Origin: Candidatus Binataceae bacterium
Lineage (GTDB): Bacteria; Desulfobacterota; Binatia; Binatales; Binataceae
Reading direction: 5' to 3'
NCBI GenBank assembly: GCA_036495685.1
Contig: DASXMJ010000155.1
Span: forward strand, 1 to 34,948
Length of the DNA: 34,948 bases
Shown here: positions 4,977-31,438 of the stretch, one piece after another
Layout: every line of letters starts with the position of its first letter
Position numbering within the stretch: position 1 is the stretch's first letter
Program-made: the position numbers and the translations under genes
The notes under the pieces: model-generated
Databases searched by the model: none
What the model was told of the DNA's origin: nothing
What the model saw: only the letters and a program-made list of their open reading frames with translations

Positions 4977-6131
4977 TTACACCTGCTCGACGACCGTGGC
5001 GATTCCCTGACCGATGCCGATGCACATCGTCGCCACCCCCAACGCGACACGACGACGGTGCATCTCGTGGATCAGGGTCACCACCAGCCGCGCGCCCGAG
5101 CATCCGAGGGGATGCCCCAAGGCTACGGCGCCGCCGTTCACATTGAGCTTCTCTTCGTCGATCTTGAGGTCGGTGTTACACGCGAGAACCTGTGCGGCAA
5201 ACGCCTCGTTAATTTCGAATAAGCCGATATCCTTGATCCCGAGGCGGGCGCGGCCGAGCGCCTTACGGGTTGCGGGAACGGGACCCCATCCCATGATCTC
5301 GGGGCGCACGCCGACAACGGCGGTGGCGCGAATTTTGGCGAACGGTCTGAGCCCGAGATCGCGTGCACGCTCCGCACTCATCAGCAGCACGGCGGCGGCG
5401 CCATCGCTGATTTGTGAGGAATTGCCCGCCGTAACCTGTCCGTCGGACTTGAACGAGGGTTGCAGTGCGGCGAGCTTCTCGAGGCTGGTCTCCGCGCGGG
5501 GGCCCTGGTCGACGTCGACTGTGGGGCCGTCGGCCAACTTGATAGGGACGATCTCCTCTTTGAACCGATCGCGAGCGGCGACAGCGCGCTGATTGGAGCG
5601 CAGCGCAAAGGTATCCGACTGCTGGCGGGTTATCTTATACATGTCCGCAAGCCGCTCCGCGGTGAGACCCATAAAGAACATGTCGCGCGGAAACATCTCG
5701 AGCAGTTTGGGATTCGGCACGATCCCCGAACCCATCGGCACGTGGGTCATGTGTTCAACCCCGCCCGCGAGGGCGACCTCGCCGGCGCCGACCATGATCT
5801 CCTGGGCAGCGAAGTTGAGCGCCTGCAGACTCGAGCCGCATTGCCGGTCGATCGTGGTCCCAGCGACTTCAACCGGCAGCGCTGACAGCAACCCAATCAT
5901 CCGGGCGACGTTCAGACCCTGCTCGCCCGATTGATTCGCACATCCGAAGACTACGTCTTCGATCTCGGCCGGATTTACTTTGGGATTTTTCTCAAGCAGG
6001 CGGCGTATGCAATTCACCGCGAGATCATCGGCACGGATGTCTTTATAGTACCCCTTGTCCCTAGCAGCTCTGCCGATCGGCGTCCTTACGCCGTCGACCA
6101 CGACAACTTCGCGCACGAGGGATTCCTCCAT
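4977..6131 (-). CDS. Thiolase (acetyl-CoA acyltransferase, FadA-like)
   Basis: A 384-residue degradative-type thiolase. The acyl-accepting Cys98 lies in TTIDRQCGSS; the others are in NEAFA, GHPLGCSGA (His340) and CIGIGQG (Cys370). The start ATG at 6131 gives the standard N-terminus (REVVVVDGVRTPIGRA); the longer ORF to 6221 adds a non-homologous tail overlapping the upstream gene. Thiolytic cleavage of 3-oxoacyl-CoA (beta-oxidation, or 3-oxoadipyl-CoA at the end of aromatic degradation) is expected. It follows the CaiB/BaiF gene by 43 bases. Whether it serves the 3-oxoadipate made by the neighbouring aromatic operon is an inference only; family resemblance alone does not separate FadA from PcaF. 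Confidence 0.93.
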   Translation of the reverse strand: MEESLVREVVVVDGVRTPIGRAARDKGYYKDIRADDLAVNCIRRLLEKNPKVNPAEIEDVVFGCANQSGEQGLNVARMIGLLSALPVEVAGTTIDRQCGSSLQALNFAAQEIMVGAGEVALAGGVEHMTHVPMGSGIVPNPKLLEMFPRDMFFMGLTAERLADMYKITRQQSDTFALRSNQRAVAARDRFKEEIVPIKLADGPTVDVDQGPRAETSLEKLAALQPSFKSDGQVTAGNSSQISDGAAAVLLMSAERARDLGLRPFAKIRATAVVGVRPEIMGWGPVPATRKALGRARLGIKDIGLFEINEAFAAQVLACNTDLKIDEEKLNVNGGAVALGHPLGCSGARLVVTLIHEMHRRRVALGVATMCIGIGQGIATVVEQV

Positions 6132-6174
6132 TGCCGGATTTTGCCGCCGCCCCGTGAGGCGCCGGCGGAGACGT

Positions 6175-7371
6175 CTATATGATACTCCGCTTGCGCAACT
6201 CGGAAAGGTGCCAAGAATCATAGCCTAGCACACGCTCCAAGACGGCGTCGGTGTGTTCGCCGAGCGAAGGCGCACGGGTAGCAGGAATCGCCTTGGAGCC
6301 GGTGTTCTTGAAGGGAGAGCCGGGCACGATCAGATCCGGATACCCGGGATGGTCTGCCCGCAGAATCATGGCACGCTCCTGCAGATGCGGGTTACGGGTC
6401 ACTTCCTCGACGTTCGCGATCGGAGCGCATGGCACTGCGGCATCGCCCAGCAACCGAAGCCAGTGATCGCGCGTCTTGGTCATGAACCGGCGTGCGAGAA
6501 TTGCCTCGAGTTCCACATGATGCGAGGTGCGCTCCGCATTGCGGATGAAACGTGCGTCCTCCTTCAACTCAGGCATCTCGATCGCGTCGCACAATCGCTG
6601 CCAGATGGCTTCGTTGCCCGCACCCGCTACAAAGAAACCATCGGCTGCGCGGAATTGCTGAAAGGGCGTGATGGACGGATGGCGAGTGCCGAGCGGTCCG
6701 GGCACACGGCCCGAGACCGAGTAGCGCGCGAGCGCGTCTTCCAGCATCGCGACCTGACAGTCGAGCATCGCAACGTCGATATGCGTGCCCTTGCCATCGC
6801 GGTCGCGAATCCGCAGGGCGGCCAGGATAGCCGAAAGTCCATAGAGCGCAGCCGAGAGATCCCCGATTGAAACGCCGCAGCGGGTAGGTTCGCCGTCGGG
6901 CGGTCCCGTGATGCTCATGGTGCCGCCCAGCGCCTGCGCGACGATATCGTAGGCGGGCGCTGCGGCCATTGGTCCGGTTTGTCCAAAACCGGAAATTGAG
7001 CAAAGAATTACGCGGGGGTTGGCGGCCACCAGCGCCGGGTAACCGATGCCGAAGCGCTGCATGGTGCCGGGCGAGAAATTCTCGACTACTACATCAGATT
7101 TTGCCGTCAGCGACAGAAATATCTCTACCCCTTCTTGCCGGCGCAGGTCGAGGGTGACGCTCTGTTTGCCGCGATTGACGCTGTAGTAGTAGCCCGAGTC
7201 TCCGTTGGGAAGCATCGGTGCGAAGCTGCGCGAATCGTCCCCGCGTCCGGGTAATTCGATCTTGATGACCTCGGCGCCGAGGTCTGCGAGGTTCATCGTG
7301 CAGAAAGGACCGGCTAGCACCCGAGTGAGGTCCAGCACGCGAATCCCGGCCAAGGGCTTGTCTTCGATCAT
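6175..7371 (-). CDS. CaiB/BaiF family (type III) CoA-transferase
   Basis: A 398-residue family III CoA-transferase. N-terminal PLAGIRVLDLTRVLAGPF and GAEVIKIE are the family signature, and Asp171 in GVSIGDLSAALYG corresponds to the catalytic aspartate that forms the acyl-aspartyl intermediate. Family members move CoA between carboxylic acids (formate/oxalate, carnitine, bile acid, succinate/aromatic acid). It is first gene of the minus-strand run that continues with thiolase, suggesting activation of an acid that is then beta-oxidised. The acid is unknown. Confidence 0.92.
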   Translation of the reverse strand: MIEDKPLAGIRVLDLTRVLAGPFCTMNLADLGAEVIKIELPGRGDDSRSFAPMLPNGDSGYYYSVNRGKQSVTLDLRRQEGVEIFLSLTAKSDVVVENFSPGTMQRFGIGYPALVAANPRVILCSISGFGQTGPMAAAPAYDIVAQALGGTMSITGPPDGEPTRCGVSIGDLSAALYGLSAILAALRIRDRDGKGTHIDVAMLDCQVAMLEDALARYSVSGRVPGPLGTRHPSITPFQQFRAADGFFVAGAGNEAIWQRLCDAIEMPELKEDARFIRNAERTSHHVELEAILARRFMTKTRDHWLRLLGDAAVPCAPIANVEEVTRNPHLQERAMILRADHPGYPDLIVPGSPFKNTGSKAIPATRAPSLGEHTDAVLERVLGYDSWHLSELRKRSII

Positions 7372-8769: not shown

Positions 8770-9063
8770 CCAGCTAGACTATGTGACGTTCCGCTCCCTT
8801 GTCCAAGGGAAGAGAAAACCGCGGTCTGGGGCAGATGGGCGACAGTTATCGACCTGGCAAATTCCCTGCCCAAACCTGGCACGCGGCCTCGATGATCTTT
8901 AAGACAAACTCGTGCGCTCGGCCGTTGCCTGGTTTGCGCATTCGGCTTGTCGATCCGCTGCACTCTCCTCGACGATCCGGTTTGAGAATTGAACGAACGT
9001 TTAGCTAATGTTGGAAGTCGCGCGCAGGCGCAATTCCAACCGGGAGCAAGGGAGTCGGCTGCC
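8770..9063. other. Divergent intergenic region, HpaB-like gene leader
   Basis: The space between the minus-strand unknown gene and the HpaB-like gene holds no coding sequence I can support. A short AACG-AA-CGTT dyad at 8992-9001 could be a half-site arrangement for a regulator, but it is too short to be convincing. An in-frame ATG at 8989 would extend the downstream protein by 25 non-homologous residues and was not used. Confidence 0.3.
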
Positions 9064-10452
9064 ATGATGACCGGAGAACAATACAAGAAGAGCTTGAACG
9101 ACGATCGCGAGACCTTCTTCGAAGGGGAGCGAGTCCGCGACCTGGTGACCCATCCGGTACTCGGGCCTTGCGCTTCGCGGGTGGCCGCGGGTTACGACCG
9201 CTGGTTTTCGCCTAAGCCCGACGCGGTCAGCCCGTTGATGGCGATTCCACATTCCGCCGCCGAGCTGAAAGACCGCATTCCGCTGACCCACGAATCCGAC
9301 ATAGTCTCGGCGGTCACCTACCAATCGATCATGACGCTGACCACCGCGGCCACCCGGATAGCCGACGCGCTGCCGCACTACGCGGAACGCATTCGTAGTT
9401 ATGTCCAAGGCGCACAGCACCGCGACATCCGAATAGTCGAATGCATTACCGACGCGAAAGGCGACCGGAGCCGTCCTCCCGGCAAACAGGACGATCCCGA
9501 TGCGTATACACACGTGGTCGATCGCCGCAAGGACGGAGTCGTCATCCGGGGCGCGAAGCTCCACATCACGGGCGCATCGCTCAGTCACGAGTTGATGACC
9601 ATTCCAACCAAGGCGATGAAGCCAGGGGAAGAATCTTACGCGATTGCGTGCGCGGTGCCGGTCAATTCGCCGGGCGTCAAGATCGTCGATACGACTTACG
9701 CTCCGCGGCACCCCGACAGCCGGGTATTTCCGATTTCTTCCCACATTCACATGCCGGAAGGGTTTGTGATGTTCGATGATGTCTTCGTGCCTAACGAGCG
9801 CATCTTCCTCGATGGTGAGTTCGCGCAGGCGGCGGTGTTCGCACACTCGCTGGGGTTGTGGGAGCGGTTAGGGGGTCTTTCCGCAATGGCGGAAGAGGCG
9901 GATCAGCTCGTCGGGTTTGCACAGCTAATCGCGGAGGCGAACGGTCTGGCCAAGGAGAGCCACATCAAGGAGAAAATCTCCGAGATGATAATTCACGCAA
10001 CCCTGGTGCGTGCCGCGCTGGAAGCCGCCATCGCGAATTGCAGCATTAACCCCGAGGGCGCTTTCCCCGACGAGCTCTACACCAACGCGGGCAAGTACCA
10101 CGCGGCAGCCAACTACAACGCGATGGTGCGGCATCTCCACGACATTTCTGGGGGATCGGTGCTGACCGCGCCTTCAATTGCCGACTTCGAAAACGAAGTG
10201 ACCGGCCCGCTGCTGCGAAAATACATGGGCACGATGAACGGGGTCGATGGCGAGTACCGCGCGCGCTTGTTCCATGCGATTCGCGACCTCACGGCCGACG
10301 CCTACGGCGGATGGAAAGCCGTGACCAACGTGCAAGCGGGTGGCGGCCTTTACGCGCAACGCATCGTGACGCGTAGATACTACGACCTGAAGGGCGCGAA
10401 GGAAAAAGCAATGCACGTCGCGGGCATCAAGGACCAGGTGTCCAGCAATTAG
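9064..10452 (+). CDS. HpaB-family (4-hydroxyphenylacetate 3-hydroxylase-like) FADH2-dependent oxygenase
   Basis: A 462-residue protein of the 4-HPA 3-hydroxylase / 4-hydroxybutyryl-CoA dehydratase superfamily: an acyl-CoA dehydrogenase-like fold with TDAKGDRSRPP, GVVIRGAKLHITGA and FDDVFVPNERIF. The dehydratase branch needs a [4Fe-4S] cluster bound by three Cys and one His. At the expected place the sequence reads LGLWERLGGLSA, without Cys or the His, so it is more likely a two-component flavin monooxygenase. Relatives hydroxylate phenols (4-nitrophenol, resorcinol, chlorophenols). Its position upstream of the hydroquinone/hydroxyquinol operon fits making one of those rings, which is inference. 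No flavin reductase partner is seen in the window. The ATG at 9064 is preceded by AAGGGAG. Confidence 0.85.
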   Translation: MMTGEQYKKSLNDDRETFFEGERVRDLVTHPVLGPCASRVAAGYDRWFSPKPDAVSPLMAIPHSAAELKDRIPLTHESDIVSAVTYQSIMTLTTAATRIADALPHYAERIRSYVQGAQHRDIRIVECITDAKGDRSRPPGKQDDPDAYTHVVDRRKDGVVIRGAKLHITGASLSHELMTIPTKAMKPGEESYAIACAVPVNSPGVKIVDTTYAPRHPDSRVFPISSHIHMPEGFVMFDDVFVPNERIFLDGEFAQAAVFAHSLGLWERLGGLSAMAEEADQLVGFAQLIAEANGLAKESHIKEKISEMIIHATLVRAALEAAIANCSINPEGAFPDELYTNAGKYHAAANYNAMVRHLHDISGGSVLTAPSIADFENEVTGPLLRKYMGTMNGVDGEYRARLFHAIRDLTADAYGGWKAVTNVQAGGGLYAQRIVTRRYYDLKGAKEKAMHVAGIKDQVSSN

Positions 10453-10954
10453 ACGCAGGTTGTAGAAGTACGGACGTTCGGATCCTCTCGGGCACGCTTG
10501 GTCGGTCGCAAACCTCGACCGACAGGACCCGGTCGGAGGACCTTGAGCGCGGGCTTGGATTCGACTGCCGTGGCGCATATGTCACGCCTCACAATCCACA
10601 TTCGTCGGCGCTCGCGGCGCGATGGGCCTCGTTCGTCACTGGCGCAGCGGAATGCTCGATTGTGCGGCAAGGCCTGAGCAGTCTTAGTCCCGGCCGATGA
10701 TGCCGGCGGAGAAGAATCGCGGGCACGCGCCGAGGGAAAAAGTCCGGGTGGCGCGGAGGTTTTAAGTCTTTGTAACGCGCCGCTCGGTCTGGTCGGCGGG
10801 CAACTTGCGAGCTCGCGGCGGGCATATTTCCACCGGGAGTCTCTGGTGGAGTAAGTTTCGGTCAATGGCTTAGAATGTGCTGGCACTTGGCGTCGGGTTC
10901 CGAGCGGGCTCTCCGTGAAGACCGTGGCGGGTGACTGGGAAAGGACCAAGCGGA
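10453..10954. other. 502-base leader region of the aromatic operon
   Basis: No credible gene: the only long open frame here, on the minus strand (10449-10991), is Arg/Ser/Pro-rich, overlaps the next gene and resembles nothing. The region must contain the promoter for the seven-gene operon. The most visible element is the dyad at 10829-10850, listed separately. I could not place a convincing sigma70 or sigma54 promoter; TGGCAC at about 10880 lacks a correctly spaced -12 GC. Confidence 0.4.
10829..10850. promoter_or_regulatory. Long inverted repeat, candidate operator
   Basis: TCCACC (10829-10834) pairs with GGTGGA (10845-10850), and the interior GAG/CTC continues the symmetry around a central T with two small mismatched positions. 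This 22-base dyad lies about 105 bases before the first gene of the aromatic operon. Such a spacing suits a transcriptional regulator (LysR, TetR or MarR type) or an mRNA hairpin; no regulator gene is present nearby. Confidence 0.35.
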
Positions 10955-12160
10955 ATGAAGATCGGCGGATTTTATGAGCATCAGCTTCCACGCCCGTGGA
11001 CGCGCGATTCGGAACATCAGCTCCTGAAGAACGCGCTCGAGCAGGTCGAGCTTGCCGACCGCAGCGGCTACGACTACGTGTGGGCGACCGAGCATCATTT
11101 CCTGGAAGAATATGCGCATTCCTCGGCGCCGGAGATCTTCCTGGCGGCCTGCGCGGCGCGCACCAAGAACGTCAGAGTCGGGCACGGCATCGTGCAGATG
11201 CCGCCCTATGTCAATCAACCGGCGCGGGTCGCTGAGCGTATCGCGACCCTCGACCTGATTAGCGACGGTCGATGCGATTTCGGCACCGGGGAAGGGGCTT
11301 GCGAGGTCGAGTTGGGCGGGTTCTCCGTACCACAGGAAGAGAAGCGCGCGCTTTGGTTAGAAGGGCTGCAGACGGCCGTGCGGATGTTGGTTGAGGAGCC
11401 GTTCACCGGCTTCGAGGGCAAGTATATCAAGGCTCCCAGCCGCAACGTGGTGCCCAAGCCCCTGCAGCAGCCTCACCCTCCGCTGTGGCTGGCATGCTCG
11501 CGGCGCGAAACGATTCTGCTCGCGGCCAAGCTCGGCATCGGCGCGTTGACCTTCGCGTTCGTCTCTCCCGACGAATCGCGCCAGTGGGTGCGCGACTACT
11601 ACTCGACGCTCGAAACCGAATGCGAACCGGTCGGCTACGCGATCAACCCTCAGATTGCAATGGCCTGCCCGTTTCTGTGCGATCGCAACGAGCAGCTGGT
11701 GCGCGACATGACGCACGAACACCACGGCTTCTTCATGTACGGACTCGGCCACTACGCATTCTTCGGGCACCATGAACCGGGCAAGACCAATCTCTGGGAG
11801 AGTTACAAGAATCAGCCGGTCAAAGTGAAAATCGACGACCCCCTGGCCTCAGCGTCGAACGTGCAAAACTGTGTCGGCACACCCGAGCAGATTCGGGCAA
11901 CGCTGCGTGGTTTCGAAGAATCCGGGGTGGACCAGGTTCTGTTTCTTTCGCAAGCTGGCAAGATTCCGCACGAGTTGCTCATGTCCTCGATAGACCTGTT
12001 CGGCCGCGAAGTTCTGCCCGCGATCAAAGAACGCGACCATCAGCGCGCAAAAGAAAAAGCTGCATTGGTGGAACGGCTCAGCGAGAAAGCGATGAAACGC
12101 AAAACCAAGCCCACGCCACCGCAGGCGCCGACGGTGATCCGGGCGGCCGGACATCACTGA
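10955..12160 (+). CDS. LLM-class flavin-dependent oxidoreductase (luciferase-like monooxygenase)
   Basis: A 401-residue bacterial-luciferase-fold (TIM barrel) protein. N-terminal MKIGGFYEHQLPRPW, WATEHHFLEEYA, VRVGHGIVQMPPYVNQPARVAERIATLDLISDGRCDFGTGEG (read in pieces) and GTPEQIRATLRGFEESGVDQVLF are class signatures. These enzymes use FMNH2 or F420 to oxygenate or reduce small organic substrates. The ATG at 10955 was chosen over the in-frame GTG at 10931 because AAGGA lies 9 bases upstream and it starts exactly at the first barrel strand. The last ~35 residues are a Lys-rich, disordered tail. It is the first gene of the hydroquinone operon, 19 bases ahead of the dioxygenase small subunit, so a role in producing or using the same aromatic is likely but unproven. 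Confidence 0.9.
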   Translation: MKIGGFYEHQLPRPWTRDSEHQLLKNALEQVELADRSGYDYVWATEHHFLEEYAHSSAPEIFLAACAARTKNVRVGHGIVQMPPYVNQPARVAERIATLDLISDGRCDFGTGEGACEVELGGFSVPQEEKRALWLEGLQTAVRMLVEEPFTGFEGKYIKAPSRNVVPKPLQQPHPPLWLACSRRETILLAAKLGIGALTFAFVSPDESRQWVRDYYSTLETECEPVGYAINPQIAMACPFLCDRNEQLVRDMTHEHHGFFMYGLGHYAFFGHHEPGKTNLWESYKNQPVKVKIDDPLASASNVQNCVGTPEQIRATLRGFEESGVDQVLFLSQAGKIPHELLMSSIDLFGREVLPAIKERDHQRAKEKAALVERLSEKAMKRKTKPTPPQAPTVIRAAGHH

Positions 12161-12179
12161 TTTCGGGGAGGATCGACAA

Positions 12180-12674
12180 ATGATGCGGCGTGGGACTCGA
12201 TTCGGCTCGCTCGAGAACTACGAAAAGGGTGGGGTGCAGGTCATCAGTGACGATCCGCGCAACTACGTCTTTTCGAATATCTTCGAAGTCGCTTCCAGGG
12301 CGCAACCCTACGAAAAGGTCGCGGTAGGCAAGAATCTCAAGTACGTGCTCGAAGCGGTTCGCGCGGAAGGACCCTCGCCGTGGTATTCGGCCTCGCACGA
12401 TGAGGCAGCCATCGTAATGGATGGGGAAGTCGAAATTCGTCTGGTGAAGCTTAAGCAAAAGCTCGTCGCTGAGGATCATGAGGGCACCACCATGCTGGAG
12501 GGGAATCCGCAGGGAGCAAAGATGGGCTACATCGTGGCCCGTCGCGGTCATATGGCCCTGCTTCCCAAGGGGGCCGCCTACCAGTTTCATGCCGCCAAGC
12601 CGGCGGTCATTCTACTTCAGACCATCCAGGGCGATCTGACGGTCGAGAAGTGGAAAGAGATCTGCGAGAAGTGA
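12180..12674 (+). CDS. pnpC: Hydroquinone 1,2-dioxygenase small subunit (PnpC/HqdA-like cupin)
   Basis: A 164-residue cupin. The barrel shows SPWYSASHDEAAIVMDGEVEIRL and a second strand pair HMALLPKGAAYQFHAAKPAVILLQT. Size (about 19 kDa), pairing with the next gene (about 37 kDa) and order in front of an aldehyde dehydrogenase and maleylacetate reductase match the PnpC-PnpD-PnpE-PnpF arrangement of para-nitrophenol and hydroquinone degraders. In those enzymes the small subunit supports the large, iron-binding one in an alpha2beta2 complex that cleaves hydroquinone to 4-hydroxymuconic semialdehyde. An excellent SD (GGGGAGGA) precedes the ATG; a second ATG follows directly. The call rests on context and the stronger large-subunit evidence. 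Confidence 0.82.
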   Translation: MMRRGTRFGSLENYEKGGVQVISDDPRNYVFSNIFEVASRAQPYEKVAVGKNLKYVLEAVRAEGPSPWYSASHDEAAIVMDGEVEIRLVKLKQKLVAEDHEGTTMLEGNPQGAKMGYIVARRGHMALLPKGAAYQFHAAKPAVILLQTIQGDLTVEKWKEICEK

Positions 12675-12694
12675 CCACAGGGCAAGAGGTCGCA

Positions 12695-13663
12695 ATGATG
12701 GCGGAAGAGCAAACCACTAACGAGTATGGCTACCGTTCCTTCGCGGTCGGCGGATTCAAGTTCGCGCGCGACGAATACTTCGCGCACGTCGCCTGGCCGG
12801 GCGGCACCCATACGATGTCGGTGGATGCGTTCCTGCGTGCGCTGATGCGCGATATCTCTTGGAGCTTCTTCTACGGGGTCGTCAACTTCGACCAAGTGTT
12901 CGGCACTACCAATCACTATGGCAACGTCGACGTATTCGCCGGCCTCTACAACGCCGGCTATCGCGCGCAAAACAAGCAGCATTGCGAAAATTTTAAGACC
13001 GAGGAAGTCCGCGCGGTGTTCGAAGCGATGCTCGACGACTGGACCAACGAGGGCTTCGATCCGTTCGCAGCACCCGAAGAGACCGGCACCCCGTTCGGGC
13101 CCAAACGCGGCAATAATCGCGCGGCGATCAATCGTAAGCGGCTGGTTGCAAACCGAATGACCGGAATGAAAGCCGACATTCCGCTCCGTAGCGACGCGGC
13201 CGGCAACGTTGTGAATCGGCAGTTTGCCGACGTGCCCCAGGACCAGCCCGAGGTTCACGCGGAGGCCGGCTTCGAGGATGAAGTTCACGCCTTCAACTTT
13301 TTTGCCTACGTGTCGCGTTCGGACGTTACCTGGAACCCGTCGGTATGTTCCGCGGTGAAAGACAGCCAGGTGTGCGCGACCACCGAAGAATTTATCCTAC
13401 CAATCATTCACGGAAACGATCGGGTCGAATGGTTCGTTCAGCTCAGCGACGAAATTCACTGGGATATTCAGGATCGCGACACCGGTGCGCCGCGCGCCCG
13501 CGTGGTGATGAAGGCCGGCGACGTGGCCGCGATGCCGGCCGACATCCGACATCAGGGGTATTCGCCGAAGCGTTCGATGCTGCTGGTGTGGGAGAACAAC
13601 GACGCCACTCTGCCGGAGCTATACGCAAATAAGAAGCTGAAACCCAACCCGGTGGATTTCTAG
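12695..13663 (+). CDS. pnpD: Hydroquinone 1,2-dioxygenase large subunit (PnpD/HqdB-like)
   Basis: A 322-residue protein that should hold the catalytic Fe(II). Near the C-terminal cupin it has IIHGNDRVEWFVQ and later PADIRHQGY. This gives Asn241-x3-Glu245 and His286 (start at 12695), an N to E spacing of 4 and N to H of 45. From memory, the iron ligands of the characterised PnpD are Asn258, Glu262 and His303, the same spacing, which is strong support. The enzyme would cleave hydroquinone between C1 and C2, giving 4-hydroxymuconic semialdehyde. The ATG at 12695 (or the adjacent 12698) follows AGAGG; an in-frame GTG at 12650 lies inside pnpC and is less likely. It begins 20 bases after pnpC. Confidence 0.88.
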   Translation: MMAEEQTTNEYGYRSFAVGGFKFARDEYFAHVAWPGGTHTMSVDAFLRALMRDISWSFFYGVVNFDQVFGTTNHYGNVDVFAGLYNAGYRAQNKQHCENFKTEEVRAVFEAMLDDWTNEGFDPFAAPEETGTPFGPKRGNNRAAINRKRLVANRMTGMKADIPLRSDAAGNVVNRQFADVPQDQPEVHAEAGFEDEVHAFNFFAYVSRSDVTWNPSVCSAVKDSQVCATTEEFILPIIHGNDRVEWFVQLSDEIHWDIQDRDTGAPRARVVMKAGDVAAMPADIRHQGYSPKRSMLLVWENNDATLPELYANKKLKPNPVDF

Positions 13664-13713
13664 TCGCGCACAACACGCGAGCCGGCTGGAGCAGAAATTC
13701 CTGGCAAGCCCTC

Positions 13714-15183
13714 ATGCATCTCGAGACCAAGTTATTTATCGATGGCGAGTTCGTCGCTGCTGCCGACGGCGCCACCATCGCAGTCCTGAATCCTCACGAC
13801 AATTCCCGGCTAGCCGAAGTCGCTGAGGCGCGCCCCGCTGATGTCGACCAGGCGGTCGCGGCCGCATGGAAAGCGTTTCCCGCGTGGCGCGCAACCGCCG
13901 CAGCTGAGCGCGGACGCTTGCTGCTCAAGCTGGCCGAGGCAATCGAAGCCCACGCCGACGAGCTGGCGAGAATCGAATCACTTGATACGGGTCATCCAAT
14001 CCGAGACACGCGGGGACTGGATGTTCCGCGCACCGCCGCCACCTTCCGCTACTTCGGCGGCATGGCCGACAAGCTTCAAGGCAGCGTTGTACCAGTGGAG
14101 CAAGGCCTCCTGAACTATGTGGTGCGGGAGCCACTCGGGGTGATCGGACAGATCGTGCCGTGGAATTTTCCGGTGATGTCCACAAGCTGGAAGATGGGTC
14201 CCGCGCTGGCGGCGGGCAATTGTGTCGTTCTGAAACCTGCTGAACTCACTCCGCTGAGTTCTCTGAAGGTTGCGGAGTTGGTGCGGGAGGTCGGCTTTCC
14301 GCCCGGGGTCGTCAATATCATTCCCGATTATGGCGCGGTCGCCGGTCAGTACCTCGCCGAGCATCCGCAGGTGACCAAGGTCGCATTCACCGGCTCGACC
14401 GTGACCGGACGTAAAATCGTGCAAGCGTCATCGGGTAACCTAAAACGTATTCAGCTCGAGCTTGGCGGCAAGGGCGCCAATATCGTGTTCGAAGACGCCG
14501 ACCTGAAGGCCGCGATCGGCGGCAGCGCGTTTGCCATCTTCCACAACCAGGGTCAGGCGTGCATCGCCGGATCGCGGCTGCTCTTACACAAACCGATCGC
14601 CGAGCCGTTTCTGGAGGGGTTTCTGCGACTAGCAGCCTCGATAAGGCTCGGCGATCCGCTCGATCCCGCGACCGAAATGGGCCCGCTGACCTCGATGACG
14701 CATCGCGAACGCGTACTCAACTATTGCGAGGTCGCGAAGCAAGAAGGTGGCGAGATTCTGATCGGCGGCAAGCCTCCCGCCGACCCCGGGTTGGCTCAAG
14801 GATGCTACGTTATGCCGACAGTCGTCCGTGCCCGCCCCTCGGATCGCGTCTGCCAGGAGGAAGTCTTTGGTCCGTTCGTGACAGTGACAACCTTCAAAGA
14901 TGAGACAGAGGTGGTCGCCATCGCTAACGACGGCGTCTATGGGCTGGGGGGCGGGCTCTGGACGCGAGATCTCCAGCGCGCTCATCGGGTTGCAGACCGA
15001 CTTTCCACCGGCATGGTCTGGATAAACTGCTATAAGCGGGTGAACCCGGGCTCTCCCTTCGGCGGCGTGCGCAACTCCGGCTACGGACGGGACATGGGAT
15101 TTGAGGCCGCGCTCGACTACACGGCTCCGAAGTCGGTCTGGGTCAACGTGGATGCCGCGATCCCGCCTTTCTATCGCCGCTGA
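13714..15183 (+). CDS. pnpE: Aldehyde dehydrogenase, probable 4-hydroxymuconic semialdehyde dehydrogenase (PnpE-like)
   Basis: A 489-residue NAD(P)-dependent ALDH with all catalytic landmarks: Asn151 in PWNFPVM, Lys174 in LKPAELTP, general base Glu249 in LELGGKG and nucleophile Cys283 in NQGQACIAGS. Placed directly after the PnpC/PnpD pair and before maleylacetate reductase, it is the expected enzyme oxidising 4-hydroxymuconic semialdehyde to maleylacetate. Substrate assignment is by context; ALDH sequence alone would allow other semialdehydes or betaine aldehyde. The upstream SD is weak, and the gene starts 50 bases after pnpD, the widest gap in the operon. Confidence 0.88.
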   Translation: MHLETKLFIDGEFVAAADGATIAVLNPHDNSRLAEVAEARPADVDQAVAAAWKAFPAWRATAAAERGRLLLKLAEAIEAHADELARIESLDTGHPIRDTRGLDVPRTAATFRYFGGMADKLQGSVVPVEQGLLNYVVREPLGVIGQIVPWNFPVMSTSWKMGPALAAGNCVVLKPAELTPLSSLKVAELVREVGFPPGVVNIIPDYGAVAGQYLAEHPQVTKVAFTGSTVTGRKIVQASSGNLKRIQLELGGKGANIVFEDADLKAAIGGSAFAIFHNQGQACIAGSRLLLHKPIAEPFLEGFLRLAASIRLGDPLDPATEMGPLTSMTHRERVLNYCEVAKQEGGEILIGGKPPADPGLAQGCYVMPTVVRARPSDRVCQEEVFGPFVTVTTFKDETEVVAIANDGVYGLGGGLWTRDLQRAHRVADRLSTGMVWINCYKRVNPGSPFGGVRNSGYGRDMGFEAALDYTAPKSVWVNVDAAIPPFYRR

Positions 15184-15189
15184 GGCGCC

Positions 15190-16254
15190 ATGCTGCGCTT
15201 TACATATCAGGCACTACCCGCGCGAGTCATTTTCGGTGCTGGCAGCCTGGAGCGCCTGCCCGACGAGATCCAGCTTCTGGGCGCTTCGCGCGCATTGGTG
15301 CTCGCCACACCTGAGCAGCGTGATCAGGCGCAAGCCGTCGCCGGTCGAATCGGTGCCCGAGCGGTGGGAGTGTTTGCGCAAGCAACCATGCACGTGCCAC
15401 TCGCGACGGCCGAGGCCGCGCGCGAAGAAGCTAAACGACTGAGCGCGGATTGCTGTGTAGCGGTGGGTGGAGGTTCCACCACCGGACTCGCAAAAGCCAT
15501 CGCACTCGTTTCGGCGCTTCCGATTCTTGCGGTGCCGACTACTTATGCGGGTTCCGAAATGACTCCCATCTGGGGATTGACCGAGGCCGGCATCAAGCGG
15601 ACCGGGCGCGACCCGCGGGTACTCCCCAGGACCGTGATCTACGATCCGCAGCTAACCGTCACGCTGCCGCCCCTGCTGTCTGCCACCAGCGGAATGAACG
15701 CGGTCGCGCATTGCGTGGAAGCACTGTATGCGGAAGATGCGAATCCGGTCATCTCACTGATGGCGGAAGAGGGTATTCGAGCGCTCGCAACCAGCCTTCC
15801 CGCAGTGGTTAAGAACCCACACGAAATCGAAGGACGCTCGCAAGCTCTGTATGGTGCGTGGCTTGCCGGTGCTTCGCTGGGCGCGGTGGGCATGGCGCTT
15901 CATCACAAGCTCTGTCATGTGCTCGGCGGCACCTTCAATCTGCCCCACGCCGAAACCAACACCGTCGTGCTGCCCTACGTGGTGGCATACAATCGGGCTG
16001 CCGCACCCAAAGCCATCGCGCGGGTTGCGCGAGCATTGGGTGTCGACGAGGGCGCGGCCGGCCTGTATGCGCTCGCTGCCTCCATGGGCGCGCCCACCAG
16101 CCTTGGCCAAATTGGAATGAAAGAAAGCGATCTGGATCGCGCCGCCGACCTCGCGGTGGAAAGTCCCTACTACAATCCGCGACCTGTCACTCGCGAGGGA
16201 GTTCGTGGGTTGTTGGAGTATGCATTCTGCGGGCGTCCGCCGACACCGCGTTGA
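15190..16254 (+). CDS. pnpF: Maleylacetate reductase
   Basis: A 354-residue iron-type alcohol dehydrogenase-fold protein with the maleylacetate reductase pattern: GAGSLERLPDEI, the dinucleotide motif AVGGGSTTGLAKAIAL (residues ~91-106), VPTTYAGSEMTPIWG and HKLCHVLGGTFNLPHAETN. It reduces maleylacetate to 3-oxoadipate with NAD(P)H. It is the shared step after both the hydroquinone branch (via the aldehyde dehydrogenase) and the hydroxyquinol branch (via the intradiol dioxygenase encoded two genes later). The start codon is 6 bases after the preceding stop, with the SD (GAGGC) overlapping that stop, so it is probably translationally coupled. Confidence 0.95.
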   Translation: MLRFTYQALPARVIFGAGSLERLPDEIQLLGASRALVLATPEQRDQAQAVAGRIGARAVGVFAQATMHVPLATAEAAREEAKRLSADCCVAVGGGSTTGLAKAIALVSALPILAVPTTYAGSEMTPIWGLTEAGIKRTGRDPRVLPRTVIYDPQLTVTLPPLLSATSGMNAVAHCVEALYAEDANPVISLMAEEGIRALATSLPAVVKNPHEIEGRSQALYGAWLAGASLGAVGMALHHKLCHVLGGTFNLPHAETNTVVLPYVVAYNRAAAPKAIARVARALGVDEGAAGLYALAASMGAPTSLGQIGMKESDLDRAADLAVESPYYNPRPVTREGVRGLLEYAFCGRPPTPR

Positions 16255-16269
16255 CGTGGAGCGTGAGTC

Positions 16270-17727
16270 ATGAAGAGCGGGACCTCTCAGTCAGCTGAAA
16301 TTCGCGCGCGTCTCAAACATCCGATTATCGACTCCGACGGGCATGTTGCGGAGTTCGAGCCGGCGTTTTTCGATTTCCTGAGGGCTACCGCGGGTGCTGA
16401 GATGGTCGAGAAGTTCAAGTCGCTAAGCGACAGTCCCTACTTCTTCCGGTGGTACCGTCTGACCCCCGCGCAGCGTCGCGACCTGCGCGCGCCGAGGATG
16501 CAATGGTGGGTACATCCCACCCTCCAGACTCTCGACCGGGCGACCAGTTCGCTACCCAAGCTGCTACATGAGCGCCTCGACGAAATGGGTCTCGATTTTA
16601 CGATCATCTACCCGAGCATGGGCATGTTCATGCTGCACATGGGCAACGATGAGATGCGTCCCATCCTCTGTCGCGCCTATAACGACATGCACGCGCAGTT
16701 GTTCTCGGCATACTCGGATCGAATGACCCCCGCCGCAATCATTCCCATGCATACCCCACGCGAAGCGATTGCCGAGCTGGAACACGCGGTACGGGACTTG
16801 AAGCTCAAGGCCATCCTGATGCCCTCCTTCGTCCGTCGCCCGGTTGCCGAAAAATCGGCACGCGGCTTCTGGTCTGACAACCTGTGCATCGACAGCGAGT
16901 ACGACTACGACCCGGTCTGGGCGAAGTGCCTAGAATTGAAAGTAGCACCGACCTTTCACTCGCCGAGTAGCGGGTTGGGATTTCGTACCTCGGTCTCCAA
17001 CTTCGTGTACAACCATATCGGCCACTTCGCGGCGTCGGCGGAATCCATCTGCAAGGCGCTGTTCCTGGGAGGGGTGACGCGACGTTTCCCGCAATTGCGC
17101 TTCGCATTCATGGAAGGAGGGGTTGCGTGGGCTGCGACGCTGTACGGGGATCTGATCGGGCATTGGCAAAAGCGCAATCTGGAGGCGGTGAGGAACCTGG
17201 CGCCCGACAAACTCGACCTTCCGCTGATGCGAAAGTTGTTTCAAGAATACGGCGGCGACTACGGCGAGGCGGCAGTCGCCCGCCTGGGCGAGGACCGGTC
17301 GCACTTGCTATGGGGCGGGCCGGAGGATCCGTCCACGCTCGACGAGTTCGCTCGCTGCGGCATCAGCTGCAAGGAAGATATCCGAGACCTATTCGCTACC
17401 AAGTTTTTCTTCGGCTGTGAGGGCGACGACAAGCTGACGGCGCTGGCTTTCGACGCGAAGAAAAACCCGATGGGCACCCGGTTGGGCGCTGTTTACAGCT
17501 CCGACATCGGACATTTCGACCTGCCTGATATGCGTGACGCAGCCAAAGAAGCCCACGAGTTGGTGGACGAGGGCTTGATTGACCGACGAGACTTCCGCGA
17601 TTTCGTTTTTGCAAATCCGGTGCACGCGAAGGCGGACGTAAATCCGGATTTCTTTAAGGGAACGATTGTAGAACAAGACGTTGTCCGTTTGCTGGCCGAA
17701 AAACCTTCGAAGGGTGGGCCGGAATAA
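16270..17727 (+). CDS. Amidohydrolase-2 family metal-dependent protein, candidate decarboxylase/hydrolase
   Basis: A 485-residue member of the amidohydrolase-related (PF04909-type) TIM-barrel group. The first metal motif is D21-S-D-G-H25, followed by YPSMGMFMLHMG, a central THx-type His in APTFHSPSS and a late SSDIGHFD that supplies the catalytic Asp region. Shorter relatives (~330 residues) include gamma-resorcylate and ACMS decarboxylases; this longer form, with a ~100-residue insertion, is common in environmental genomes and poorly characterised. Sitting 15 bases after maleylacetate reductase and 2 before an intradiol dioxygenase, it may decarboxylate a dihydroxybenzoate to a diphenol entering the pathway, as in gamma-resorcylate operons. 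This is inference. Confidence 0.82.
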   Translation: MKSGTSQSAEIRARLKHPIIDSDGHVAEFEPAFFDFLRATAGAEMVEKFKSLSDSPYFFRWYRLTPAQRRDLRAPRMQWWVHPTLQTLDRATSSLPKLLHERLDEMGLDFTIIYPSMGMFMLHMGNDEMRPILCRAYNDMHAQLFSAYSDRMTPAAIIPMHTPREAIAELEHAVRDLKLKAILMPSFVRRPVAEKSARGFWSDNLCIDSEYDYDPVWAKCLELKVAPTFHSPSSGLGFRTSVSNFVYNHIGHFAASAESICKALFLGGVTRRFPQLRFAFMEGGVAWAATLYGDLIGHWQKRNLEAVRNLAPDKLDLPLMRKLFQEYGGDYGEAAVARLGEDRSHLLWGGPEDPSTLDEFARCGISCKEDIRDLFATKFFFGCEGDDKLTALAFDAKKNPMGTRLGAVYSSDIGHFDLPDMRDAAKEAHELVDEGLIDRRDFRDFVFANPVHAKADVNPDFFKGTIVEQDVVRLLAEKPSKGGPE

Positions 17728-17729
17728 CC

Positions 17730-18611
17730 ATGAAAACACCAACCGCAGCTGGAATTACGCGTAATGCGATCGCCCGAATGTCGAAATGCAAGGACCCGCG
17801 CCTCAAGCAGATTGTTCGCTCCCTCATGAATCATCTTCACGATTTCGCGCGCGAAGTTAAGCTGACTCCCGAGGAATGGCTGGCCGGCATTGAGTTCCTG
17901 ACCGCCGTGGGCCACATCACGGATGAAAAGCGCCAGGAGTTTATACTGCTGTCGGATACGCTCGGGCTGAGCGCGGTCGTCGATCTGATGGCCAATCGCA
18001 AAGGCGAATCCACTGCGACTGATTCGAGCCTGCTCGGGCCCTTTTTTCGCCAGGGTGCCCCCATGTTTCCGATAGACGGAGATATCTCTCACGGCGCATC
18101 TGGCGAGAAGCTGATGGTAGCGGGGCGGGTATTGAACACCGCTGGCGAACCCGTCGCCGGCGCGCTGATCGATACCTGGCAAGCCTCCTCGGACGGAATT
18201 TATGACCTGCAGCAAAAGAATTCAGACCAAATGAATTTCCGGGGCCGCTTGCGAACCGGGGCGGATGGGCGGTTTCGCTTTCGCTCGGTTAAGCCCTCGA
18301 GCTATCCGGTTCCCTCGGACGGTCCGGTAGGAAAGATGCTGCGGACATTGGCGCGTCATCCCTATCGCCCGGCCCATGTCCACTTCAAGATCGCGGCGCC
18401 CGGCTACCGGACCCTGACCACCGCCTTATATGTCGCGGGAGACCGCTACCTGGACTCCGATGTCGTTTTCGGCGCGAAGAAGTCGCTCGTGGTCAGCTAC
18501 CGCGGTTCGGGAAGGAACGGGGCCGCGTCGACCATCGAATTCGACTTCGTCCTCGATTCCAAAGAATCGACAAAGAAAGGAAGACGCGGGCAGCTTGCGG
18601 CGTCAATGTAA
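17730..18611 (+). CDS. Intradiol ring-cleavage dioxygenase, probable hydroxyquinol 1,2-dioxygenase
   Basis: A 293-residue Fe(III) intradiol dioxygenase. The four iron ligands are visible: Tyr158 (DGIYDL), Tyr192 (SSYPVP), His216 and His218 (RPAHVHF). The N-terminal helical linker domain and LLGPFFRQGAP segment place it with the catechol/hydroxyquinol branch rather than protocatechuate enzymes. Next to maleylacetate reductase, hydroxyquinol (1,2,4-trihydroxybenzene) is the likely substrate because its cleavage product is maleylacetate; catechol or chlorocatechol remain alternatives. It is last gene of the operon, only 2 bases after the preceding stop, and is followed by a strong terminator hairpin. 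A basic tail (KKGRRG) extends the C-terminus. Confidence 0.9.
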   Translation: MKTPTAAGITRNAIARMSKCKDPRLKQIVRSLMNHLHDFAREVKLTPEEWLAGIEFLTAVGHITDEKRQEFILLSDTLGLSAVVDLMANRKGESTATDSSLLGPFFRQGAPMFPIDGDISHGASGEKLMVAGRVLNTAGEPVAGALIDTWQASSDGIYDLQQKNSDQMNFRGRLRTGADGRFRFRSVKPSSYPVPSDGPVGKMLRTLARHPYRPAHVHFKIAAPGYRTLTTALYVAGDRYLDSDVVFGAKKSLVVSYRGSGRNGAASTIEFDFVLDSKESTKKGRRGQLAASM

Positions 18612-18671
18612 CTCATCGTCGTACCGCGGCGAGCGTGACTCATCGCGGGAGTCGCTCTGCCCGAAACGAAC

Positions 18672-18697
18672 GAGGGCCCAGCAGATGCTGGGCCCTC
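18672..18697. terminator. Bidirectional hairpin terminator between convergent genes
   Basis: GAGGGCCCAGC and GCTGGGCCCTC form a perfect 11-bp GC-rich stem closed by an AGAT loop (12 bp if the A-T pair forms). It sits 60 bases after the dioxygenase stop and 31 before the ABC-exporter stop, so it can end transcription from both sides. Only a short T-run follows on the plus strand. Confidence 0.85.
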
Positions 18698-18727
18698 TTG
18701 GCTGACAGTAATTCGGCGCAGCCGCGA

Positions 18728-20617
18728 CTAAAAGGCGACCTGGTAGCCGTCCGCTTCGCGCTGTTGCGCCAGGATAAGGCCGCGGGTCTGTTCGCGGTAT
18801 AGCCGGGCATACGTTCCATTGCGCCGTAGCAGATCGTTGTGTGTGCCGACCTCGGCCACGTTGCCGTGGTCGAGTGCGACGATAAGGTCGGCGGTGACCG
18901 CGCTGCGCAGGCGATGGGCGATCAGGAAGACCGTGCGGCCTTCCATCAACCGTTCCATGGCCTCATGAATGAGGTTTTCCGACTCGGAGTCGACCGCCGA
19001 AGTTGCCTCGTCCAGGATGACGATCTTCGAGTCTTTCAGAAACGCGCGGGCAATCGCGAGCCGTTGGCGCTGTCCGCCTGACACCTTGACTCCGCGTTCG
19101 CCAATAATCGTGTCGAGCCCGTTTGGTGACTGTTCCACGAAGTCACGCAAGCTGGCCTGTTCCAGCGCCTGCCACATCATCTCGTCGGTCGCATCGGGAC
19201 GCGCGTAGAGGAGGTTTTCGCGCACGCTTGCACTGAACAGAAGCGCATCCTGAGTGACCATACTGACTGCCTGTCGCAGCGATTTGAGCGTGTAGTGACG
19301 CACATCTTTGCCATCCACCAGCACGCGACCGCCAGTCGCGTCGTAGAAGCGCGGAATCAGGCTAGAGAGGGTCGTCTTGCCGGCGCCGGAACGGCCCACC
19401 AGTGCGACTCGATACCCGCCGGGGATGTTGAGATCGATGCCCTTTAGAACCTCGCGACGCTCCGCACCATCGCGCGTGGGATATCCGAAATGCACGCCCT
19501 CAAAGGTCACCGCGCCGCGCTTGACCGGGAAGGGGCGGGCCAGCGGATGGTCCCCGATCTCAGGTTTCAGATCGAGAAAGGCGAACATCCTCTCAATTGC
19601 GGCGAGCGAACCCGATACGACGATCGAGAGCTGGGCGAAGCGTTCCAGCGGCACGTACACAAACTGCACATAGAGAAAAAACGCCATCAGGGTGCCCAGC
19701 GTGGTCGTGCCGCGTACGATCATGAGAGCTCCGACCCACAGCACCACCGCCGGTGCGGAACGGGTCAGAAGCTGGATAAGCATTTCCTGCGAAGCCGCCA
19801 GGCGCACCTTGTCGATCGAGCGCGAGTACATATCGCCACCCTGTTTCTGGAAGCGATGCACCTCGCGCTCCTCTCCGCCGAACGATTTGACGGTGGTCGC
19901 GCCAATGACGCGCTCGTGCACCTCGCCGGCTATCTCCTCAACCTTTTCCTGCATTCGATGGCTGACTGCCTTAATTCGCGGCGAGAAGATACGGATAAAG
20001 ACTACCCAGAAGGGCGCGATCGCGAGCGCTACCACCGCCAGGCGCCAATCCATTGCGAAGAGCAGGGCCACCACGATTATCAGCGAGGTTGCGTCCATCC
20101 ACACGTCGACGAACGCCGAATCGATGAGCTCGTTGGCGCGAGAAACGTCGTTGAGCACCCGGGAAACAATCGCACCTGCGGGATTGCGATCGAAGAATGA
20201 ATGAGGGAGCCTCTGCAGATGGGCGAACAGCTTGCACTGCAGATCATAGATGAGTCGATGACCGGCAAGACCCGCCCAGTAGTTGCGATAGTAGCTGGCC
20301 GCGGCCTGGGTCGCGTAGGCGAGCAGGAGCACGATGCTCAACGCGGCGAGCTTGCCCTGGACCGCCGTCCCCAACCCGAGCAGGTTGGCAATGGCGATAC
20401 ACCAGTGATCGATTTTGAGGCTGATGCCATCCGGATGGGGATGAGCCGCAAGCAGGACATCGACCACGTACCGGAAAGCGATCGGGAAGGCGAGCGGAAG
20501 GGTAAACTTGCCGATGCCCATCAGGGCGGCACCCACAACCAGCTGCGCGTTCGGTTTCAGAAAGGACAGGAACCTGAGCAACGGATGCTTCGAGGTCTCT
20601 TCAAGTTTGCCGTCCAT
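18728..20617 (-). CDS. ABC exporter (MsbA/lipid or multidrug type), fused TMD-NBD
   Basis: A 629-residue half-transporter. Residues ~1-340 form six membrane helices with the type I exporter coupling region (SFFDRNPAGAIVSRVLNDV). The ATPase follows: Walker A GRSGAGKTT, Q-loop MVTQDALLF, signature VSGGQRQRLAIARA, Walker B KIVILDEATSAVD and H-loop IAHRL. It would function as a homodimer exporting a lipid or amphipathic molecule. The MsbA family is a close match, but drug or glycolipid export cannot be excluded. It is monocistronic, divergent from the MFS gene and convergent with the aromatic operon; a role in exporting aromatics is possible but unsupported. Confidence 0.92.
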   Translation of the reverse strand: MDGKLEETSKHPLLRFLSFLKPNAQLVVGAALMGIGKFTLPLAFPIAFRYVVDVLLAAHPHPDGISLKIDHWCIAIANLLGLGTAVQGKLAALSIVLLLAYATQAAASYYRNYWAGLAGHRLIYDLQCKLFAHLQRLPHSFFDRNPAGAIVSRVLNDVSRANELIDSAFVDVWMDATSLIIVVALLFAMDWRLAVVALAIAPFWVVFIRIFSPRIKAVSHRMQEKVEEIAGEVHERVIGATTVKSFGGEEREVHRFQKQGGDMYSRSIDKVRLAASQEMLIQLLTRSAPAVVLWVGALMIVRGTTTLGTLMAFFLYVQFVYVPLERFAQLSIVVSGSLAAIERMFAFLDLKPEIGDHPLARPFPVKRGAVTFEGVHFGYPTRDGAERREVLKGIDLNIPGGYRVALVGRSGAGKTTLSSLIPRFYDATGGRVLVDGKDVRHYTLKSLRQAVSMVTQDALLFSASVRENLLYARPDATDEMMWQALEQASLRDFVEQSPNGLDTIIGERGVKVSGGQRQRLAIARAFLKDSKIVILDEATSAVDSESENLIHEAMERLMEGRTVFLIAHRLRSAVTADLIVALDHGNVAEVGTHNDLLRRNGTYARLYREQTRGLILAQQREADGYQVAF

Positions 20618-26424: not shown

Positions 26425-27531
26425 TTAGCGTCTTTTTGCAGGCTTCCTCATCGCGATCAGACGACGATAAACGCGCTCGTATGCTTGGGCCATCCTCTCG
26501 ACTGTGAATCGCTGCTCGAACTCCGCGCGAACCTTGGCGCGCGGCAATTCGACCGCCTTGCGCACCGCGGTCGCCATCTCATCCACCGTGCTTGCGATAT
26601 ATCCGCTGACACCGGGTTTCACGATTTCGGGTACGGATCCGTACGGCCGAGTGACGACCGGAGTACCGCACGCCATCGCTTCGATCATCGCCAGACCGAA
26701 TGGCTCAGGCCAATCGATGGTAAACAACAGCGCCGCCGCGTTGCCTAGGAAACCATTCTTCTCAACCTCGTTGATCTCACCGATGTATTCGATGTCGGGC
26801 GGCGCCAGATGCGGTTTCACTACTGCTTCGTAGTAGGCTTTGTTGGGGACGTCGACCTTGGCCGCGATCTTGAGTGGGATCCCGACTTTGCGCGCGACCT
26901 CCATTGCGAGATCCGGCCGCTTTTCCGGGGAGATTCTGCCCAGAAACGCCAGGTACTTGCCCGGACCGGGACTGAAGTGGAGCACGTCGTCTGGCAGGCC
27001 GTGATACACGGTTGCGCGCCAGTTCAGGAAGGGCAGAGGCGTGCGCTGTGCGTCGCTGATGGAGACCACCGGGGCCTTGCGATAGCGCGAGTAAATCGGC
27101 ACAAGCGCATCGATGTCGAGGCGGCCGTGCAGAGTGGTTAGCGACGGAATTCCCGGCGAAAGTTCCGCAAACGGGAACGTCCAATAGTCTACGTGACCGT
27201 GGATGATGTCGAAGTGTTGGTCAGCATTCCTGTAGGCATCGCTGATCATCGGAAAGTGGAGGAATACACCTTGCTCCGAGAGGCCCGCCAATCGTAGTGA
27301 TTCCGGATAACCAGCATGCAGTCGCGCCTTGGTTGACGAATCGCCCGAGGCAAACAGCGTAACCTTATGGCCACGCCGCACCAGTTCGTCGGCGAGATAT
27401 GCAACGACCCGCTCGGTGCCACCATAGAGCTTGGGCGGAACGCGCTCATAGAGCGGGGCAATCTGTGCAATCCGTAATGGCCTGAAATCGGAACGCGGCG
27501 GCCTGGTGTTCCTCGCTCTCTTACTTGGCAA
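26425..27531 (-). CDS. Glycosyltransferase family 4 (GT-B) protein
   Basis: A 368-residue GT-B glycosyltransferase. The N-terminal domain starts LRIAQIAPLYERVPPKLYGGTERVV (acceptor side) and the C-terminal donor site includes FLGRISPEKRPDLAMEVA and the E-x7-E-like segment EPFGLAMIEAMACGTPVVTRPYGSVPEIV. It transfers a sugar from a nucleotide or phosphosugar to an unknown acceptor. Initiation is probably at TTG 27531: there is no Met before about residue 150, and a strong AAAGGAG (plus-strand 27540-27546) lies 8 bases before the TTG. It is followed after 31 bases by the debranching enzyme gene, so both probably form an operon. Confidence 0.9.
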   Translation of the reverse strand: MPSKRARNTRPPRSDFRPLRIAQIAPLYERVPPKLYGGTERVVAYLADELVRRGHKVTLFASGDSSTKARLHAGYPESLRLAGLSEQGVFLHFPMISDAYRNADQHFDIIHGHVDYWTFPFAELSPGIPSLTTLHGRLDIDALVPIYSRYRKAPVVSISDAQRTPLPFLNWRATVYHGLPDDVLHFSPGPGKYLAFLGRISPEKRPDLAMEVARKVGIPLKIAAKVDVPNKAYYEAVVKPHLAPPDIEYIGEINEVEKNGFLGNAAALLFTIDWPEPFGLAMIEAMACGTPVVTRPYGSVPEIVKPGVSGYIASTVDEMATAVRKAVELPRAKVRAEFEQRFTVERMAQAYERVYRRLIAMRKPAKRR

Positions 27532-27833
27532 AACCCGTGCTCCTTTCGATTGCGGCGCCCGCGCGGCAAACAGCGATCAATCGGCCCACATATAAGCATG
27601 GTGCCACCGCGACTGGAACGACCGTCTTATGCAAGCTTCCGCCTGGCAAGTCCCCTTGGTGGAGCGATGCCGCGGCGCTACCCCGTCACGGTAGAGCCGA
27701 AACCACAGATCGCGCTGCTGCCGTGACTTTCAGTCACGCAAAATTCACCGACCGCACCATCGCGGTGTTCTTTCCCGGCAGTGCAACTGCAGATAGTTTA
27801 AATGAGGCTGGAATCGCTCCTAGGAGAAGCGCA
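27532..27833. other. Divergent intergenic region, GT4 operon / Rieske gene
   Basis: About 300 bases separate the divergent starts. Apart from the GT4 Shine-Dalgarno (27540-27546) and the Rieske gene's AGGAG (27822-27826), an AT-rich TAGTTTAAAT at about 27793-27802 is the best -10-like candidate. No gene is supported. Confidence 0.35.
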
Positions 27834-31342: not shown

Positions 31343-31438
31343 TGGCGGAGGGGGGAGGGAGTCGAACCCTCCGGCAACCGCAATGGCTGCCAGGCCGGTT
31401 TTGAAGACCGGTGGGGCCACCGGGCCCCTTCCTCCTCC
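31343..31438 (-). tRNA. selC: tRNA-Sec (anticodon UCA), with encoded CCA
   Basis: The minus strand reads as a 96-base selenocysteine tRNA. Stem by stem: 5' acceptor GGAGGAGG with 3' CCCCCTCC (one A-C mismatch) and discriminator G plus CCA; D stem GGGGCC/GGCCCC with a 4-nt loop (CGGT); anticodon stem CCGGT/ACCGG with loop CTTCAAA (TCA at plus-strand 31402-31404); long variable arm GGCAGCC/GGTTGCC with loop ATTGC; T arm GAGGG/CCCTC with loop TTCGACT. The 8-bp acceptor, 6-bp D stem and long variable arm are the tRNA-Sec fold. It decodes UGA as selenocysteine when SelB and a SECIS are present. No selenoprotein was noticed in the window. Confidence 0.95.

Follow-up and report, generated by a model that had tools for sequence, protein, structure and literature searches.

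Organization of the gene cluster

The window analyzed here, a 34,948-bp stretch of the Candidatus Binataceae bacterium contig DASXMJ010000155.1 (assembly GCA_036495685.1), contains seven tightly spaced genes on the plus strand, with intergenic gaps in gene order of 19, about 20, 50, 6, 15, and 2 bp. The first gene (10955..12160) encodes an LLM-class flavoprotein of the bacterial luciferase family (LLM; PF00296, E 2e-49), the ATG of which at 10955 is preceded by AAAGGA, with an alternative GTG at 10931. The next two genes encode the PnpC/HapC/HqdA-like small subunit (12180..12674) and the PnpD/HapD/HqdB-like large, catalytic subunit (12695..13663, with the first in-frame GTG at 12650) of a predicted type II hydroquinone 1,2-dioxygenase. 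These are followed by genes for a PnpE-like 4-hydroxymuconic-semialdehyde dehydrogenase (ALDH, 13714..15183), a PnpF-like maleylacetate reductase of the iron-ADH family (MAR, 15190..16254), an amidohydrolase-2 protein of 485 amino acids from the ACMSD-like superfamily (AMH, 16270..17727; PF04909, E 4e-13), and a PnpG-like intradiol dioxygenase of the hydroxyquinol 1,2-dioxygenase type (IDO, 17730..18611). The first-pass annotation had described seven closely packed genes with these enzyme assignments; all seven lie where it placed them, and the assignments were borne out by profile and PDB matches.

A strong, GC-rich, terminator-like palindrome (18672..18697, 11-bp stem, loop of 4) is located between the last gene and a convergent ABC transporter gene. 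The region 10300-18900 contains no match to the sigma-70 consensus, a negative result that means little in an organism of this kind. The gene order is shared by further genera of the family and the dN/dS values are low, so that the arrangement is more than chance and the seven genes probably form a single operon. On the 5' side, a gene for an HpaB-superfamily protein (8989..10452, plus strand; PF11794/PF03241) is separated from the operon by 478 bp and probably represents a separate unit. This protein was considered as a hydroxyquinol-forming hydroxylase and rejected, as its best PDB match is a vinylacetyl-CoA isomerase, the gap is wide, and the gene adjoins the operon within the genus only (present at locus L031, with no match at L033 and L103 and no copy beside the operon in other genera).

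Ring-cleavage enzymes and related operons

Over almost their full length, the PnpC- and PnpD-like subunits align with two hydroquinone dioxygenases of solved structure, 5m21 and 4zxa (small subunit: 5m21_A, E 3e-60, and 4zxa_A, E 8e-55; large subunit: 5m21_B, E 6e-140, and 4zxa, E 2e-129, in addition to PF18191), with no Pfam or NCBIfam model matching the small subunit. The two adjacent genes, homologous to HapCD/HqdAB/PnpCD, correspond to the small and large subunits that characterize type II (heterotetrameric) enzymes. The residues H254, N256, E260, and H301 of the large subunit (numbered from the GTG at 12650), at the His, Asn, Glu, and His iron-site positions of PnpD, are kept, and the same four residues occur in 116 of the 117 large-subunit rows collected, some of which come from overlapping loci. 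The ALDH matches 4go3/4go4 (E 2e-229), the gamma-hydroxymuconic semialdehyde dehydrogenase of strain WBC-3, a match second only to that of an unassigned ALDH, and the MAR matches 3jzd (E 1e-137) as well as 3hl0 (E 2e-113) and 3w5s (E 2e-111), both named maleylacetate reductase. For the IDO, hydroxyquinol-type PDB chains score E 1e-65 to 1e-76 (1tmx, E 4e-73; 3n9t, E 1e-70; 8r2x, E 5e-75) versus E 2e-38 for the best (chloro)catechol-type chain; the protein falls under every curated catechol or chlorocatechol equivalog cut-off and keeps the Fe(III) ligands Y158, Y192, H216, and H218. Judged from these matches, the IDO is nearer to hydroxyquinol enzymes than to catechol or chlorocatechol enzymes.

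The PnpCD-like enzyme would open the ring of hydroquinone, or of a hydroquinone bearing substituents, to give 4-hydroxymuconic semialdehyde, which the ALDH would oxidize to maleylacetate, and the IDO would form maleylacetate directly from hydroxyquinol. That a hydroquinone route and a hydroxyquinol route converge on maleylacetate, as put forward in the first-pass annotation, is well supported by homology and by the predicted active-site residues. The MAR would then yield 3-oxoadipate, and this end product is supported by the clusters of relatives, since those of genera g7 and g13 carry CatI/CatJ-like genes for a 3-oxoadipate CoA-transferase-like enzyme and that of g13 also carries a PcaF-equivalog thiolase. 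No PF01144 CoA-transferase was found in the whole genomes of G000 (the genome of the window), G034, G019, G021, G052, and G053, all of which have the same operon, and 3-oxoadipate must therefore be activated differently in these six genomes. Overlapping genes for a family III CoA-transferase and a FadA-like thiolase (4977-7371, minus strand), divergent from the operon region, were considered as the lower end of the pathway; this role is possible, but the thiolase is nearest to FadA, scores below all equivalog cut-offs, and lacks a nearby counterpart on the contig from the same genus. The genome of the window has a further locus (L192, contig C19) that encodes an FAD aromatic hydroxylase, a maleylacetate reductase (59% identity), and an intradiol dioxygenase (about 50%), and appears to be an ordinary hydroxyquinol route. 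Divergent PnpC/PnpD proteins with about 48% identity and conserved iron ligands (L112, L113, L115, and L116), from a different family of the class, are encoded next to genes that, by sequence, appear to specify a 2-oxoglutarate dehydrogenase complex.

Both ring-cleavage enzymes occur together in the pnpCDEFG operon of Pseudomonas sp. WBC-3 (PMC5603801), pnpC1C2DECX1X2 of P. putida DLL-E4 (PMC4871426), pdcEDGFCBA of Pseudomonas sp. 1-7 (PMC3324391), and the pnp cluster of Burkholderia sp. SJ98, the report of which also names WBC-3 and DLL-E4 (PMC3485097). A role of both branches in nitrophenol degradation has been proposed for SJ98 and strain 1-7. In WBC-3 and DLL-E4, the hydroxyquinol enzyme is reported to serve 4-nitrocatechol only (PMC3485097). 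The first-pass annotation knew of no matching characterized operon. This holds for the LLM gene at the head and the AMH gene before the IDO gene, but not for the presence of both ring-cleavage enzymes in one operon of the same order (pnpCDEFG and pnpC1C2DECX1X2). It had overlooked that the C-D-E-F-G order of the window is the published pnpCDEFG order. The locus is, by gene content and order, a pnpCDEFG-type operon with an LLM gene added at its head and an AMH gene before G. The combination of hydroquinone and hydroxyquinol dioxygenases in one operon is already known, and the novelty resides in the conserved LLM and AMH-IDO additions.

Like the WBC-3 and DLL-E4 operons, the operon of the window encodes both hydroquinone dioxygenase subunits, the ALDH, the MAR, and the hydroxyquinol dioxygenase in the same order; those operons lack LLM and amidohydrolase genes, receive their substrate from PnpA, an FAD monooxygenase, with the reductase PnpB, and have known LysR regulators. 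Neither PnpA (nitrophenol 4-monooxygenase) nor PnpB was found within the operon of the window. The 1-7 and SJ98 clusters likewise combine the two cleavage routes, with proposed convergence on maleylacetate, but differ from the window in gene order, and the 1-7 cluster has a nitrophenol monooxygenase. The hapCDEFGHIBA cluster of Pseudomonas fluorescens ACB, for 4-hydroxyacetophenone, shares the type II hydroquinone dioxygenase and the 4-hydroxymuconic-semialdehyde dehydrogenase, and resembles the window also in a feeding step of an oxygenase followed by a hydrolase, for which we propose LLM and AMH here; in the hap pathway, this step is carried out by a Baeyer-Villiger monooxygenase and an esterase rather than by an LLM protein and an amidohydrolase (PMC3727088). 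The C-D-E-F-G order also occurs on one strand in the alpha- and beta-proteobacterial plasmids pSCLO_6 of Sphingobium cloacae and pNK83 of Caballeronia NK8 (in one of them with outer membrane genes after D), with proteins 45–71% identical to those of the window; these clusters end with a Rieske ferredoxin and have no LLM or AMH match. In the records of these Sphingobium and Caballeronia plasmids (L258 and L259), both hydroquinone dioxygenase subunits are annotated as "hydroxyquinol 1,2-dioxygenase," which is misleading. Azohydromonas (L042) has the order C-D-E-F-G as well.

Conservation of the added genes

PnpD is present in 27 of the 148 genomes of the class to which the window belongs. Further genera of its family share the order LLM-C-D-E-(F)-AMH-IDO, with 57–90% identity, and five genomes of this family show it (G034, G019, G021, G052, and G053). 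In G049 the same set is rearranged and accompanied by a CoA-transferase pair and PcaF, and G025 has C-D-E-F-AMH-IDO without LLM. The AMH-IDO pair thus lies in the operon in seven genomes of five genera (counting G049), with LLM in all but G025, while an LLM ortholog occurs in none of the three relatives without AMH-IDO in the operon (G037, G038, and G048), which have the hydroquinone core. Other LLM proteins adjoin this core in G037 and G048. The operon LLM proteins form one clade (86/89 support) apart from their nearest paralogs; for the operon amidohydrolases, monophyly was neither recovered nor rejected (AU p 0.289). Comparison with the same-genus genome G034 gave dN/dS values of 0.056 for LLM and 0.079 for AMH, with 0.036–0.143 for the core genes, indicating by sequence divergence that both added genes are under purifying selection. 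LLM and AMH-IDO are conserved add-ons to a predicted hydroquinone/hydroxyquinol operon that is otherwise well conserved and belongs to a familiar type. Viral contigs contained no relatives, and plasmid homologs of AMH and LLM were found in unrelated contexts (ABC transporters and polyketide synthases).

The genome of the window has 81 Bac_luciferase and 58 Amidohydro_2 matches, and because both families are so large, an LLM gene and an amidohydrolase gene may well be neighbors by chance. The number of amidohydrolase genes at most 500 bp from an LLM gene is six, compared with 0.96 expected and a maximum of 5 in 2,000 simulations with random placement on a single line of genome length, an approximation that ignores contig ends and operon structure. 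This excess speaks for a recurring partnership between the families, independent of this operon, within which LLM and AMH lie 4 kb apart. The operon offers a tractable handle on these two very large, nearly uncharacterized families of the genome, and it shows that a lineage without cultured members, represented here by metagenome assemblies only, has a complete predicted hydroquinone/hydroxyquinol pathway.

Possible roles of the flavoprotein and the amidohydrolase

We read the operon, with an even chance of being right, as a pnpCDEFG-type lower pathway to which LLM and AMH add an upper-pathway pair. LLM would oxygenate an aromatic precursor, and hydrolysis of the oxygenated compound by the metal-dependent AMH would supply the two cleavage routes with hydroquinone and/or hydroxyquinol. 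The pair would take the place of PnpA/PnpB of nitrophenol degraders, or of the Baeyer-Villiger monooxygenase and esterase in 4-hydroxyacetophenone degradation. Release of (hydroxy)hydroquinone is the most likely function of LLM and AMH, where we infer both this step and the growth substrate. More tentatively, and with a probability that we consider rather low, LLM and a Glu-type AMH may constitute, in this uncultured family, a new kind of upper module that releases (hydroxy)hydroquinone from an aromatic precursor. Such a module would be analogous to the monooxygenase and esterase of 4-hydroxyacetophenone degraders, but built of unrelated proteins from the large LLM and amidohydrolase sets of the genome. 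We counted in favor of the upper pair the co-occurrence of LLM and AMH-IDO among relatives, the neighbor excess in the genome, and Glu282 of AMH, and against it the retention of AMH-IDO without LLM in G025 and the little meaning of single adjacencies in large families. The products of LLM and AMH would enter a pathway with known later steps, so an assay can be designed.

The LLM family includes the type II Baeyer-Villiger monooxygenases (PMC4631483; PMC5395668), and large LLM sets in SAR202 have been read as putative enzymes of this type (PMC5395668). For LLM of the window, no close relation to the diketocamphane monooxygenases, which are of this type, was found, 4uwm matching only with E 3e-4; the proteins of solved structure closest to it give no hint of a phenolic substrate, and the operon encodes no flavin reductase. 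The sequence places LLM in the LLM superfamily only.

Alignment of 26 AMH sequences revealed that the metal-site motif residues D23, H25, H230, and D412, as well as E282, are invariant. The profile built from them weakly matches ACMSD, PtmU3, DitZ, and dihydroxybenzoate decarboxylases (PDB E about 1e-7 to 1e-9), with no relative of known reaction on phenolics among the sequences matched, and the AlphaFold model, from four aligned sequences, has a mean pLDDT of 41. H230 aligns with the metal ligand His174 of ACMSD, while D23-x-H25 and D412 were assigned by motif only. Glu282 occupies the position of His224 in human ACMSD, which is listed as a zinc ligand and is equivalent by motif to the catalytic His228 of the bacterial enzyme; DitZ also has Glu at this position. 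An ACMSD-type catalytic histidine was accordingly absent from all 26 sequences, which argues against an ACMSD-type decarboxylase and would fit a hydrolase better. We therefore favor, with roughly even odds, a hydrolase that is partnered with LLM and acts after the oxygenation.

Gamma-resorcylate clusters that pair a non-oxidative hydroxybenzoate decarboxylase with a hydroxyquinol dioxygenase and MAR exist, and AMH, which lies directly 5' of the hydroxyquinol dioxygenase gene and shares its superfamily with 2,3-dihydroxybenzoate decarboxylase and ACMSD (weak matches), could be such a decarboxylase, with LLM hydroxylating the decarboxylated phenol to hydroxyquinol. Glu282 is compatible with this role, since gamma-resorcylate decarboxylase (gamma-RSD) transfers the proton via Asp287 rather than a histidine. 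However, AMH is distantly related to these decarboxylases and much longer (485 versus about 330–340 residues), its metal motif D23-x-H25 has Asp where gamma-RSD has Glu8, and the invariant Glu at the ACMSD catalytic position also speaks against decarboxylation, so that we regard this role as unlikely.

A function of AMH below ring cleavage, hydrolyzing maleylacetate or 3-oxoadipate in place of the CoA-transferase/thiolase steps, is less probable still, yet the MAR and PF01144 losses leave room for it. Genera g1, g2, and g15 carry the operon AMH in genomes without PF01144 CoA-transferase, while the operons of g7 and G048 have a CatI/CatJ-like pair and no AMH. MAR orthologs were not found in the genomes G048, G052, and G053, the g15 genomes keep AMH without a MAR ortholog, and in G049 (L180:4500-5010) a MAR relic that has lost a large internal part and keeps the N- and C-terminal ends, now fused, lies between CatJ and AMH. 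On the other hand, G049 has AMH, CatIJ, and PcaF together, close AMH paralogs occur in many genomes far from any maleylacetate pathway, MAR is intact in the window, and the family III CoA-transferase and thiolase are encoded nearby on the other strand. AMH as an essential MAR substitute is contradicted by G048, which lost MAR with no AMH in its operon.

There is little probability that LLM, in place of a pathway oxygenase, is a reductase or detoxifying enzyme dependent on F420 or FMN (e.g., for quinone or side-product clearance). In favor of this role, hydroquinone is readily converted to benzoquinone, the operon has no identified benzoquinone reductase, and the LLM family includes F420-dependent reductases. 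Against it, the best NCBIfam scores of LLM are for FMN-type oxidoreductase subfamilies (all below cut-off). A CofD match in the genome says little about F420, as the same family also matches in E. coli.

Elsewhere in the window, a Rieske ring-hydroxylating oxygenase alpha-subunit-like protein is encoded at 27525-28904 (plus strand), and a tRNA-Sec gene (31343-31438, minus strand) lies directly beside a gene for a phage-type integrase (31498-32634, minus strand), a pair that is a typical integration site.
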